DNA of 64,000 nt from Halorubrum sp. 2020YC2. Its GTDB lineage: Archaea; Halobacteriota; Halobacteria; Halobacteriales; Haloferacaceae. Shown here in pieces: positions 1,268-58,045 of the stretch. The position numbers and the translations under genes are program-made. A model generated the notes under the pieces. That model had not been told where the DNA came from and made no database searches. It saw only the letters and a list, made by a program, of their open reading frames with translations. The stretch is taken from NCBI RefSeq assembly GCF_018623055.1, contig NZ_CP076019.1:2852001-2916000 (forward strand), given 5' to 3'. The first letter of the stretch is position 1. Each line of letters opens with the position of its first letter.

Positions 1268-1600
1268 TGATCGGTAGTTTATAACTGATTGAGTGGTGTC
1301 GCCGTCGGCTGTTTATACGTGATCAACGACGCGGTGAGGATCTCCAAAGCCCCAGCCGCGACGACTCGCGCGGCTTGCTGCGCTCCTCAGTCGCTCGTTC
1401 CACTCGCTCCCTGCGGTGCTTACTGCGCCGGGCTTCGTCTTCGCGGCTGCCCCTTTGAGTCCCACCCGACCACAGCCGCACAGCACCTCACGCCTCCCCA
1501 GCCTCGTCGCTCGCTTCGCTCGCGACTCCCTCGCACCGGCGGTTCGCGCCCTTCGGGCGCTCACCGGGGCGCGCCACCGCCTCATTCATTTATAAGCGAT
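1268..1600 (-). repeat. Structured intergenic repeat element, copy A
   Basis: This is the most diverged of four copies of a hairpin-rich element; strand is given for the orientation whose G-U pairing in copy B suggests transcription. Read on the plus strand it has TATA-like TTTATA motifs (about 1278 and 1311), the CTCCAAAGCCCCAGCC motif at 1341, a stem with arms 1355-1361 and 1441-1447, the conserved core (CCCCTTTGAGTCCCACCC at 1450, then CACCTCACGCCTCCCC at 1485), a second hairpin (GTCGC 1506-1510 with GCGAC 1522-1526), a 6-bp hairpin with loop TTC at 1546-1560, and a final TTTATAA at 1589. It fills the gap between convergent rps7 and aconitase. ORFs through it are Arg-rich and not convincing proteins. 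Confidence 0.8.
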
Positions 1601-9887: not shown

Positions 9888-10378
9888 ATAGCCGACCGCG
9901 CCTCGACGAATACTTATAAAGAACTGATGCGGTGGCGCGTGCCTGCGAGCGGGCCAGCGGCCTGCGAGCCAGCACGCGCGAGGGAGTCGGTCGCCCGGAG
10001 CGAAGCGACGGGCGACCGACGAGGCTGGGGAGGCGTGAGGTGCGGTTGCTGTGCGGGGTGGGACTCAAAGGGGCAGTCGCGAGGCGGACGCAGGCGACGT
10101 AAGGACCGCAGGAACGAACGAAGTGAGTGACGAGGACCGCAGCGAGCGTGCGTCCGCCTCGCGGCTGGGGCTTTGGAGGTGTTCACCGGAGAGTCATCGA
10201 TCATGTACCGCCTCGCGGCTGGGGCTTTGGAGGTGTTCACCGGAGAGTCATCGATCATGTACCGCCTCGCGGCTGGGGCTTTGGAGGTGTTCGCCACCGA
10301 TCTGCTATTATCTATTTATAAGCGAGCGGCCGAGAACTTTGGAGAAATTCGTCGCAGAGCCTTCGATTACTTATAAAC
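9888..10378 (+). repeat. Structured intergenic repeat element, copy B
   Basis: Second copy, plus-strand orientation. Order: TATAAATA at the nadE stop, TTATAAA at 9914, closing stem GCGCGTG (9935-9941) with CACGCGC (9973-9979), then hairpin 9986-9997/10009-10020 (12 bp perfect). Next comes the conserved core (GGCTGGGGAGGCGTGAGG at 10023; GGGTGGGACTCAAAGGGG at 10056). The long stem follows, 10076-10092 with 10149-10165: 17 bp including one G-U on this strand, which would be A-C on the other. It ends in tandem 54-bp units. The gap separates convergent genes. A Gly/Arg-rich ORF through the units has no protein-like features. Confidence 0.85.
10154..10378 (+). repeat. Tandem 54-bp units with degenerate outer unit
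   Basis: The unit starting CCGCCTCGCGGCTGGGGC occurs at 10154, 10208 and 10262. The first two 54-bp units are identical; the third diverges after 31 bases and runs into ATCTATTTATAAGCG. A fourth, degenerate unit (GGCCGAGAACTTTGGAG near 10328) is followed by ACTTATAAACA. Equivalent 57-bp units occur in copies C and D. Each complete unit in C and D carries TTATAA about 30-45 bases from the CTTTGG motif, so the units could be promoter repeats or remnants of nested insertion. Confidence 0.85.
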
Positions 10379-10432
10379 ACCCGACAGCAACACTGCTCGA
10401 TCGCAAACTGAATCCCGAGGACGCGACCGCTC

Positions 10433-14269: not shown

Positions 14270-15520
14270 ATGGCAATTAAGGCCACTCGCACCTACGTTG
14301 GTTCCATCAAGAACCACCAACAGGTCTGCGATGGTCTTGATTCGCTCGGAGACTCCGCCTCGAAAATTTGGAACGTCGCACGATGGACAGCCGACCGTAT
14401 CTGGGACGCAACCGCCGAGATTCCGAACGGTAGTGTGCTGAAATCGTATATGAAGAACCAGTCGTGCTGGAAAGATTTGAACGCACAATCCAGTCAGAAA
14501 GTCATCGAAGAACTTTCTGACGCTTTCCAGTCATGGTTCGATCTGCGACACAACTCCAGTGAGGCGAATCCGCCCGGCTACCGCAAGCGCGGAGACACTC
14601 GACCACGTTCCACGGTCACGTTCAAAGAAGACGGGTTCAAACACGACCCTGAGAACAACCGCGTCCGACTCTCGAAAGGTTCGAATCTGAAAGAACACTT
14701 CTCAGACTTCCTGCTTTGCGAATACCAGACTCGCCCGGACGTTGATCTCTCGGAAGTCAACAGCGTACAGAACGTTCGGGCAGTCTGGAACGGCGATGAA
14801 TGGGAACTCCACTTCGTCTGTAACGTCGAGATCGAATCTGCCGACCCAGCAGGCGACGGCGTGGCAGGGATCGACCTCGGAATTACGAATATCGGCACGG
14901 TCGCGTTCCCGGACGAATACGTCCTGTACCCCGGCAACTCGCTCAAAGAAGACAAACACTACTTCACCAGAGCTGAGTACGACACCGAGGGAGAGAACGG
15001 CCCGTCAGAGCAGTCGAAGTGGGCGCGTCGGAAACTCTCCGAACGTGAGACACACTTCTACCACACGCTGACGGACGCCATAATCACGGAGTGTGTCGAA
15101 CGCGGTGTTGGCACGCTTGCGGTGAGTTGGCCTGAAGACGTGCGCGAATCAGATTGGGGCAAGACGGGCAACAAGAAACTCCACACATGGGCGTTCGACC
15201 GCATCTACCAGTACCTCGAATACAAAGGCGAGATGTGCGGTGTAGAGGTACTGAAAGAAAACGAATGGAACACCTCGAAAACATGTTCACGATGTGGAGA
15301 CGACACGAAATCGAATCGCGTCGAACGTGGACTGTACGTCTGCTCGTCGTGCGAGTTGGTAGCCAACGCGGATTGTAACGGAGCGGAGAATATACGCCAG
15401 AAGATAACTCCGAGTCCTCACGGCAAGGATAGGAGTAACGGCTGTGTGGCACAGCCATCGACACACTTGTTCGACCGCGAGAGCGGGATGTTTCACACGA
15501 GAGAACAGGTCGTGTCGTAG
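14270..15520 (+). CDS. tnpB: RNA-guided endonuclease TnpB
   Basis: A 416-residue TnpB, the transposon-encoded ancestor of Cas12 nucleases, guided by RNA from the element's right end. RuvC-like residues are D202 (GIDLGITN), E289 in the SWPEDV context typical of haloarchaeal members, and D368 (NADCNGAEN). The zinc ribbon C339-C342-C358-C361 is intact. The N-terminal helical and OB-like part (residues 1-190) is complete. No TnpA is present, so the element cannot mobilise itself unless helped in trans. Base composition is visibly less GC-rich than the flanks, suggesting transfer. Confidence 0.93.
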   Translation: MAIKATRTYVGSIKNHQQVCDGLDSLGDSASKIWNVARWTADRIWDATAEIPNGSVLKSYMKNQSCWKDLNAQSSQKVIEELSDAFQSWFDLRHNSSEANPPGYRKRGDTRPRSTVTFKEDGFKHDPENNRVRLSKGSNLKEHFSDFLLCEYQTRPDVDLSEVNSVQNVRAVWNGDEWELHFVCNVEIESADPAGDGVAGIDLGITNIGTVAFPDEYVLYPGNSLKEDKHYFTRAEYDTEGENGPSEQSKWARRKLSERETHFYHTLTDAIITECVERGVGTLAVSWPEDVRESDWGKTGNKKLHTWAFDRIYQYLEYKGEMCGVEVLKENEWNTSKTCSRCGDDTKSNRVERGLYVCSSCELVANADCNGAENIRQKITPSPHGKDRSNGCVAQPSTHLFDRESGMFHTREQVVS

Positions 15521-21832: not shown

Positions 21833-21990
21833 CTTATAAATAATCGACTGCTGATCGGCGGCGCACACCGCCAAGGCCCCAGCCGCTCGCTTATAAGTGG
21901 TTGATCATGAACCGACGGGCGACACCGCCAAAGCCCCAGCCGCTCCCTTATAAATAGTTGATCACGAACCGACGGGCGACACCGCCAAAG
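21833..21990 (-). repeat. Three tandem 57-bp units of copy C
   Basis: The motif CACCGCCAAAGCCCCAG recurs at 21866 (with one change), 21923 and 21980, exactly 57 bases apart. Each is preceded by a CTTATAAATAGTTGATC-type segment. The TATA-like block sits 30-45 bases before the motif. Confidence 0.85.
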
Positions 21991-22430
21991 CCCCAGTCGC
22001 GAGGACGGCGCACACTCGTTGTCGCCCGAAAATCTCCGATTTTCGGGATGACGAGAGAGCTTTGCTCTCTCAAACCACGCTCCTCGCTCGTTCGCTCCGC
22101 TCACTCGCTGCGGTGCTTATGTCGTCTGCGCCGTCCTCGCGACCGCCCCTTTAAGTCCCACCCCGCACCGCTCCGCACCACCGGAAGACGTTCCTGCTCG
22201 CTCACTCCGTTCGCTGCGCGGGCTGCGACTTCCGTACTCCCGCTTGCTCCCTCCGGTCGCTCGCGGGACAGCACCTCACGCCTCCCCAGCCTCGTCAGTC
22301 GCCGTCGCTTCGCTCCGGCGACTGACTCCACCGAGAATCGAAGATTCTCTGGCAGCCGGCGCTACGCGCCGGCGACCTCGCGCGTGCGACTCGCGGCCTG
22401 CGGCCGCTCGTCGGCACGCGCCACCGCTTC
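21833..22430 (-). repeat. Structured intergenic repeat element, copy C (largest)
   Basis: This third copy lies between the RNase Z and RPA genes. Plus-strand order is three 57-bp units, the 17-bp perfect stem 21996-22012 with 22127-22143, the core (CCCCTTTAAGTCCCACCC at 22146), then CACCTCACGCCTCCCC at 22272. Hairpin 22294-22304/22316-22326 (11 bp perfect) and the closing stem GCGCGTG (22380-22386) with CACGCGC (22415-22421) follow. Extra hairpins with 3-base loops decorate the variable loops: CCCGAAAATC/GATTTTCGGG near 22025, GAGAGAGC/GCTCTCTC near 22053, GAGAATC/GATTCTC near 22333 and GCCGGCGC/GCGCCGGC near 22355. The strand follows copy B's orientation logic. Confidence 0.85.
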
Positions 22431-57674: not shown

Positions 57675-58045
57675 GCTTATAAATGACTGCCAGTAGATCG
57701 GCGGTCAACACCTCCAAAGCCCCAGCCGCTCGGTTATAACTAACTGACCGTGGATCGGCGGTCAACACCTCCAAAGCCCCAGCCGCGAGGCGGGCGCACG
57801 TTCGCTGCGCTCCTCGTCGCTCGTTTCACTCGCTCCTGCGGTGCTTACATCACCTGCGCCCGCCTCGCGGCTGCCCCTTTGAGTCCCACCCCGCACCGCA
57901 CAGCACCGCACCTCACGCCTCCCCAGCCTCGTCGGCCGCCCGTCGCTCCGCTCCGGGCGCCCGACTCCCTCGCGCGTGATCCTCGCGGCCGCCTCCGGCG
58001 GCCGCTCGCAGGCACGCGCCACCGCTGCGTTTATTTATAAATAGT
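57675..58045 (-). repeat. Structured intergenic repeat element, copy D
   Basis: This fourth copy lies between two convergent genes. Plus-strand order is two tandem 57-bp units (CACCTCCAAAGCCCCAGCC at 57709 and 57766), the 17-bp perfect stem 57782-57798 with 57855-57871, the core (CCCCTTTGAGTCCCACCC at 57874; CACCTCACGCCTCCCC near 57910), and hairpin 57931-57942/57954-57965 (11 of 12 pairs). The closing stem GCGCGTG (57972-57978) with CACGCGC (58013-58019) encloses GCGGCCGCC/GGCGGCCGC. TTTATAAATAG ends the element near 58040. Strand as inferred from copy B. Confidence 0.85.

Follow-up and report, generated by a model that had tools for sequence, protein, structure and literature searches.

A pair that reads as a G-U wobble on one strand and as an A-C mismatch on the other raises the question of which strand of a repeated element is the one that folds, and whether the molecule that acts is RNA. 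The case considered here is copy B, one of four copies (A to D) of an element in the window, the whole stretch of 64,000 nucleotides of Halorubrum sp. 2020YC2 that was analysed, in which the core word has a chance expectation of 0.53. From one pair in its stem I, T10077 with G10164, the original prediction had deduced that the functional RNA reads along the plus strand. Copy B is a member of a dispersed family of structured, strand-oriented elements that occurs across haloarchaea and, judging from the sequence evidence, the acting molecule is probably RNA (at a rough probability of 0.55). The features concerned, in window coordinates, are these:

9914 to 9920, no strand assigned: TATA-like word TTATAAA, ahead of copy B
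9929 to 10190, plus strand: copy B in full, starting at the sharp 5' edge GCGGTGG and ending with the first conserved 3' block
9935 to 9979, plus strand: 5' hairpin H1, outer arms 9935-9942 and 9972-9979
9986 to 10020, plus strand: hairpin H2, an inverted repeat with arms 9986-9997 and 10009-10020
10021 to 10040, plus strand: conserved unpaired linker GAGGCTGGGGAGGCGTGAGG, from the conservation profile
10055 to 10074, plus strand: conserved core GGGGTGGGACTCAAAGGGGC, which contains three of the four G-tracts and has invariant alignment columns
10066 to 10070, plus strand: 5' arm of the closing stem, CAAAG, with its partner at 10171-10175
10075 to 10092, plus strand: 5' arm of stem I, containing the wobble base T10077
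10149 to 10166, plus strand: 3' arm of stem I, with G10164 opposite T10077
10167 to 10190, plus strand: conserved 3' block GGGGCTTTGGAGGTGTTCACCG, with the fourth G-tract and the 3' arm of the closing stem
10154 to 10320, plus strand: tandem tail of copy B, 54-nt units repeating the 3' arm of stem I
1344 to 1580, minus strand: copy A, covariance model match at 1343-1467
21985 to 22427, minus strand: copy C, model match at 22041-22163, with two inserted double-hairpin modules
57771 to 58025, minus strand: copy D, model match at 57770-57891

Read directly, stem I of copy B pairs 10076-10092 (GTCGCGAGGCGGACGCA) with 10149-10165 (TGCGTCCGCCTCGCGGC) at 17 of 17 positions without a break, just as had been described, and it is lengthened by A10075-T10166 and C10074-G10167. 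T10077-G10164 is indeed the sole wobble among the 17 pairs, and the equivalent pair is Watson-Crick in both copy C (T-A) and copy D (C-G). The closing stem of copy B joins CAAAG at 10066-10070 to CTTTG at 10171-10175; among 30 cores from other genera, 29 have GAAAG and CTTTC instead. The inverted repeat of stem I recurs in the 122 parsed copies of this genome and, in a structural alignment of 41 of 55 candidate rows from this and other genera, 96.1% of the 777 cells of a 20-pair structure are paired, against 71.8% (sd 1.1) after shuffling; the repeat is therefore not due to chance. The same alignment contains 164 double changes (55.9 when shuffled) and gives a covariation score of 0.533, compared with 0.140 for shuffled alignments and at most 0.107 for slid structures. 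The 3' core is a long hairpin, made of the closing stem, stem I and an inner helix, in which pairing is kept while the sequence changes, and conserved unpaired G-rich blocks lie around it. The same helices were recovered unguided by RNAalifold. A further RNAalifold helix, pairing GGGACT with the GGTGTT tail and obtained from an input that leaves out copies lacking the 5' motif or carrying inserts, was rejected, as it consists mostly of G-T pairs that do not vary and does not appear when the minus strand is folded.

The wobble of copy B alone is of little weight. One such pair proves nothing, and wobbles and mismatches were therefore counted over many copies, on which the weight rests. A search of the genome with the core word at up to three mismatches gave 158 matches, against 12 for the reversed control; most of them were examined, some 19 weaker places being left out. 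Parsing with a 3' partner yielded 122 copies (seven core matches without a partner were dropped), and the wobble count, for which the partner was picked by the conserved end word alone, ignoring the arms, to avoid favouring wobbles, comprised 124 copies (nine without a partner were dropped). At the pair first singled out, the third of stem I, this count, which the original prediction had called for, came out on its side: C-G in 67 copies, T-A in 30, T-G in 24, C-A in none and other combinations in three. T stands opposite A in all 30 A-bearing copies, and the 24 T-G copies represent 18 distinct 14-mer arm pairs. Over the first 12 pairs of stem I (1488 cells, from copies that are not independent of each other within one genome), 1362 cells are Watson-Crick, 58 G-U and eight A-C. 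In this genome, the intermediates of stem I thus pass from C-G through T-G to T-A and never through C-A, as expected for plus-strand folding.

The same lean towards G-U is found in all six samples, this genome included. G-U exceeds A-C by 13 to 5 in 22 copies from other species of the genus (five rows dropped), by 12 to 1 in 31 same-genus copies (one dropped), by 15 to 3 in 30 copies from other genera (seven dropped), by 6 to 2 in 39 copies from other families (one dropped) and by 40 to 16 in 91 copies from named genomes (28 dropped). These samples may overlap slightly, L266 of the 31-copy set being a copy of the present genome. At the third pair, other species of the genus show T-G in six of 22 copies and C-A in two.

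Outside stem I the signal is weaker or missing. In H1 (105 copies), 824 of 840 cells are Watson-Crick, nine G-U and two A-C. H2 (89 copies) shows strong covariation, with many compensatory changes and almost no wobble: 778 of 890 cells are Watson-Crick, eight G-U and six A-C, that is, 14 weak cells in 890. A symmetric helix scan, which requires four perfect pairs on each side and is blind to helix-end pairs such as the third of stem I, gave 33 G-U and 36 A-C over whole elements, one and nine in the 5' domain, and 18 and 12 on shuffled sequence. With H2 and the whole-element scan both unbiased, the signal belongs specifically to stem I. The predicted plus direction thus stands for stem I (58 against 8) and finds no backing in H2 (8 against 6) or in the whole-element scan (33 against 36); the strand claim that survives is supported for stem I, with mild support from H1.

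Beyond its 3' core, the element has a defined anatomy. Conservation sets in abruptly at GCGGTGG and proceeds through H1, H2, the linker, the core, stem I and GGGGCTTTGGAGGTGTTC, in a profile of 115-122 copies that, like the H1 and H2 counts, excludes those that lack the 5' motif or carry inserts. As had been foreseen, the tandem units are found on the 3' side of the plus strand. The 3' word of the tail is spaced mostly at 57 nt (122 copies); at least two such words occur in 80 of the 122 copies, and a TATA-like word stands at offset 42 in 64. The tail of copy B holds two additional perfect 3' arms of stem I (10208-10229 and 10262-10283); since the 54-nt units duplicate this arm, three alternative partners are available to the 5' arm. 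The relative L157 has at least one such tail unit in common with copy B. Upstream, 79 of 115 copies have a TATA-like hexamer that starts between -40 and -8 relative to the 5' edge, with a peak at -15 to -13. The archaeal spacing from TATA box to start would place the start within H1, that is, inside the element and not at its 5' edge. For this reason the word, although common, is not taken as a proven promoter, and a promoter of the element's own at a fixed distance was rejected as an explanation.

The range of the element was defined with a covariance model of the 3' core (125 positions), which finds 131 copies in this genome, 63 on the plus and 68 on the minus strand. At an E-value of 1e-4, matches occur in 242 of the 292 class genomes (about two dozen of them weak, by reading of the table) and in 65 of 77 genera. 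In a phylum-wide sample, 29 of 33 genomes of the order matched, and none of 163 outside it (147 of these not itemised). In other families, thirty genomes selected because they matched strongly contain from 2 to 89 copies each, and a pattern scan of named genomes returned, among the matches listed, only haloarchaea or uncultured relatives, by title. Four plasmids also match, with copies under no annotated feature; that of a Halorubrum salinarum plasmid lies between annotated genes with no feature beneath it. Phage records gave no match to the copy B query, which, as in the plasmid searches, began at 9937, eight bases inside the 5' edge. A viral origin was rejected, as none of 31 viral stretches with a 15-base word contains the element and three loosely match the end word only. 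Rfam 15 returned nothing in the window at the gathering threshold and nothing up to an E-value of 5 for 9900-10400; for loci of six relatives it gave two weak matches, both outside the element. No description of the element was found in the literature searched, motif letters included, a coverage that excludes most subscription journals. The element is thus present in most haloarchaeal genomes examined, in some of them in dozens to more than 100 copies, and yet has no Rfam match.

The nature of the acting molecule is a separate matter, as a folded single strand of DNA would yield the same stem I bias as RNA. For the 3' domain, plus has a better folding energy than minus in 121 of 122 copies when RNA parameters are applied and in 118 of 122 when DNA parameters are; for the 5' domain, the corresponding figures are 113 and 107 of 114. 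Energy thus picks the strand and not the molecule; copy B itself, folded from 9937 onwards, has z-scores of -5.5 (plus) and -3.8 (minus). Two features lead us to regard RNA as the probable molecule, at the estimate given above. The G-U share of stem I, 3.9% (58/1488), is near the 4.3% seen in the acceptor stems of tRNAs encoded by this DNA (7/161 cells from 23 tRNAs, a rough comparison in which 26 of the 161 cells are unpaired), and the unpaired blocks persist across the order. The RNA would be read from the plus strand, with a core of about 125 nt and some 250 nt in this genus, and would be produced by read-through or from a promoter of its own. Its tail units may be spare 3' ends left by recombination.

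Several observations weigh against RNA, and most of them suit the alternative that survives best, which we nevertheless hold to be somewhat unlikely: that of a non-autonomous, palindrome-associated mobile DNA element whose plus strand folds as single-stranded DNA and depends on an HUH-type transposase in trans, with no role for RNA. The hairpin loops are mostly C(GAA)G, a DNA-stable loop, and not UUCG or GNRA. The change of H2 without wobble intermediates is easier to reconcile with whole hairpins being exchanged as DNA than with an RNA evolving step by step. In other genera, the cores often form head-to-head inverted pairs across a spacer of 32-35 bp, starting with ACCC and ending with GGGT, and 35 of 91 cores in named genomes have a head-to-head neighbour within 120 bp, an arrangement that leaves little space for two promoters. 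Such pairs were seen in L289, L290, L296, L299, L301, L302, L305 and L312 and, among the loci of named genomes, in L323 and L327, for example. The excess of C/T change in conserved linkers and the unbiased whole-element scan also count against RNA. The genome has three matches to Y1 transposases, one of them with internal stops.

The turnover of the element points in the same direction. Copies sit between ordinary genes, and their presence differs between related genomes. At the nadE locus, 30 genomes comprise five with an intact core and stem I, one that has lost the stem I hairpin, two with truncated copies, one with a reversed copy (L166) and 21 with none; internal deletions are seen in L167-L169. 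The interiors of the elements also change faster than their flanks: in L206, the 60 bp upstream are 0.90 identical and the element 0.60, a value to be set beside the mean of 0.615 for random paralogues, the best paralogues of copy D reaching 0.86-0.88. This, together with the variable presence, suggests that copies have been exchanged or re-inserted. Against free mobility stands locus D: of the 26 genomes of the genus that resolved there, the present one included, 18 carry the element at an unchanged position and in the same orientation (30 loci were surveyed and four did not resolve). At the empty sites L205 and L210, which carry no element, flanking TTATAA words blur the junction. Also hard to accommodate are the conserved unpaired core blocks, which are the same across haloarchaea.

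Known haloarchaeal elements offer a precedent for a mobile DNA. Haloquadratum walsbyi carries palindrome-associated transposable elements (PATEs) and small mobile repeats (SMR-A), which, in the portion of their description available, are likewise non-coding and multicopy with hairpins near the ends, and undergo core deletions, occur in opposite orientation at one site and have other hairpin elements inserted within them, events of switch and deletion like those at nadE (PMC3119063). The present element does have hairpins near its ends and no room for a transposase, as a PATE should. As far as that description goes, it is set apart from PATEs by a core of about 125 nt with a covarying stem conserved throughout the order, by a 5' edge followed by two hairpins, by the 3' tandem tail and by the lack of a link to IS605/TnpB ends. 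A BLAST comparison of 122 copies with 12 TnpA/TnpB stretches (11 loci and the tnpB stretch of the window) revealed no ends shared with IS605-type transposons; strong matches to L216 and L224 were read as separate copies of the element, and the others, mostly short, as nested hairpin modules. Moreover, TnpA/TnpB-like sequence lies near just two of 123 loci in this genome and none of 88 elsewhere, which tells against this mobile-DNA reading and, as the element does not adjoin the 3' end of a tnpB gene, led us to reject a TnpB guide RNA as well.

HEARO, a multicopy structured RNA of intergenic DNA, accompanies an IscB gene; no such constant protein partner was seen for the present element, the neighbours being varied in the loci of 12 relatives, with no constant neighbouring gene among them. 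The omega RNAs of IS200/IS605 elements (Rfam RF02656 and RF02657) are also structured RNAs tied to repeats in haloarchaea (PMC12558985). Compared with what the consulted part of that source describes, this element has no Rfam match, is not located at a tnpB 3' end and numbers about 130 copies in a genome with 15 TnpB domain matches. The TnpB-like gene of the window (14270-15520, plus strand, with a domain match at 2867194-2867394 in genome coordinates) has no adjoining copy.

It is quite unlikely that the element acts as double-stranded DNA, that is, as a REP/BIME-like intergenic palindrome for protein binding, chromosome organisation or transcription end, with no folded strand. Perfect palindromes such as H2 and the intergenic position of the copies speak for this reading (among the 112 copies whose neighbours are called on both sides, 42 are flanked by convergent genes and 16 by divergent ones). 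A cruciform, however, treats both strands alike, and would leave unexplained both the bias in stem I and that of the purine loops, whose words favour one strand (for instance, GCGAAGC at 71 against 11 and 62 against 11). The REP/BIME and GTAG/CGTC palindrome families of bacteria, in the available part of their description, share the intergenic, dispersed and hairpin-forming character and are palindromes of 20-40 bp (PMC3733652). That size is not matched here, where the core model has 125 positions and the element some 250 nt or more (120-450 nt overall), with conserved unpaired blocks and a strand preference.

The mutational background bears on a last alternative. In the tail, which is less constrained, T/(C+T) is 313/1462 (0.214) and A/(A+G) is 310/1428 (0.217), so that mutation has no strand bias there. 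In conserved linkers, on the other hand, C/T change reaches 60/480 and G/A change 6/1215 (52/457 and 9/1844 in a second linker set). This excess (0.11-0.13 against 0.005) comes mostly from two variable sites; the mutation control is accordingly not clean everywhere, and part of the asymmetry may not need pairing. That the asymmetry arose merely as a side effect, whether of mutation biased by strand or of the shared descent of a few copies, is most improbable, for although the linkers lean this way and copies of one genome are related and recombine, the tail is symmetric, the 24 T-G copies have their many distinct arm pairs, every A-bearing copy has its T, and other families show the same lean.

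For an RNA, the G-rich blocks suggest a more specific, and more doubtful, picture. G-tracts occupy invariant unpaired positions, GGG-N-GGG-N7-GGGG before stem I and GGGG after it, and all four (runs of at least three G on one strand) occur together in 93 of 101, 22 of 24, 28 of 32 and 71 of 73 cores, counts from loci gathered mostly with patterns or a model that include some of the tracts. The fourth tract, which was in no DNA search pattern, is nonetheless present in 101/101, 24/24, 32/32 and 73/73. A putative hairpin-anchored G-quadruplex, with stem I as one of its loops, is thus possible. The element might then be a scaffold in which these tracts would form either a potassium-stabilised quadruplex or a protein-binding site. 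Haloarchaeal cells are rich in potassium, at molar concentrations. That the element is a haloarchaea-specific structured RNA of up to about 130 copies per genome, whose covarying hairpin serves as the loop of a quadruplex stabilised by this potassium, we consider unlikely as a whole; if true, it would explain both the restriction to the order and the selection on the plus, G-rich strand.

Should the RNA reading hold, the element would rank with the most abundant structured RNAs in haloarchaea; should it be single-stranded DNA, it would represent an order-wide mobile system without an identified transposase. The strand test makes the choice between RNA, folded single-stranded DNA and double-stranded DNA testable for such repeats in culturable haloarchaea.

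Some further observations concern individual copies. In this genome, of ten neighbouring copies separated by less than 4 kb, eight are arranged tail to tail with an ordinary gene between them (for example, at contig coordinates 275141/276593, 596775/597620 and 2638431/2639560). A composite transposon between facing copies was rejected, as the genes inside five such pairs, presumably metabolic, look ordinary by eye. In L036, L041, L058 and L167, most or all of the stem I hairpin is lost and little remains beyond the core and end words, losses that resemble palindrome deletion. The double-hairpin modules of copy C, apparently inserted at 22376-22327 and 22078-22017, have similar counterparts in many other copies and near TnpB genes, and are reminiscent in habit of the SMR-A repeats of Haloquadratum. 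Finally, a hairpin followed by a short T-run (58120-58080), terminator-like in look, separates copy D from the gene upstream of it and is seen again at the same position in several species.
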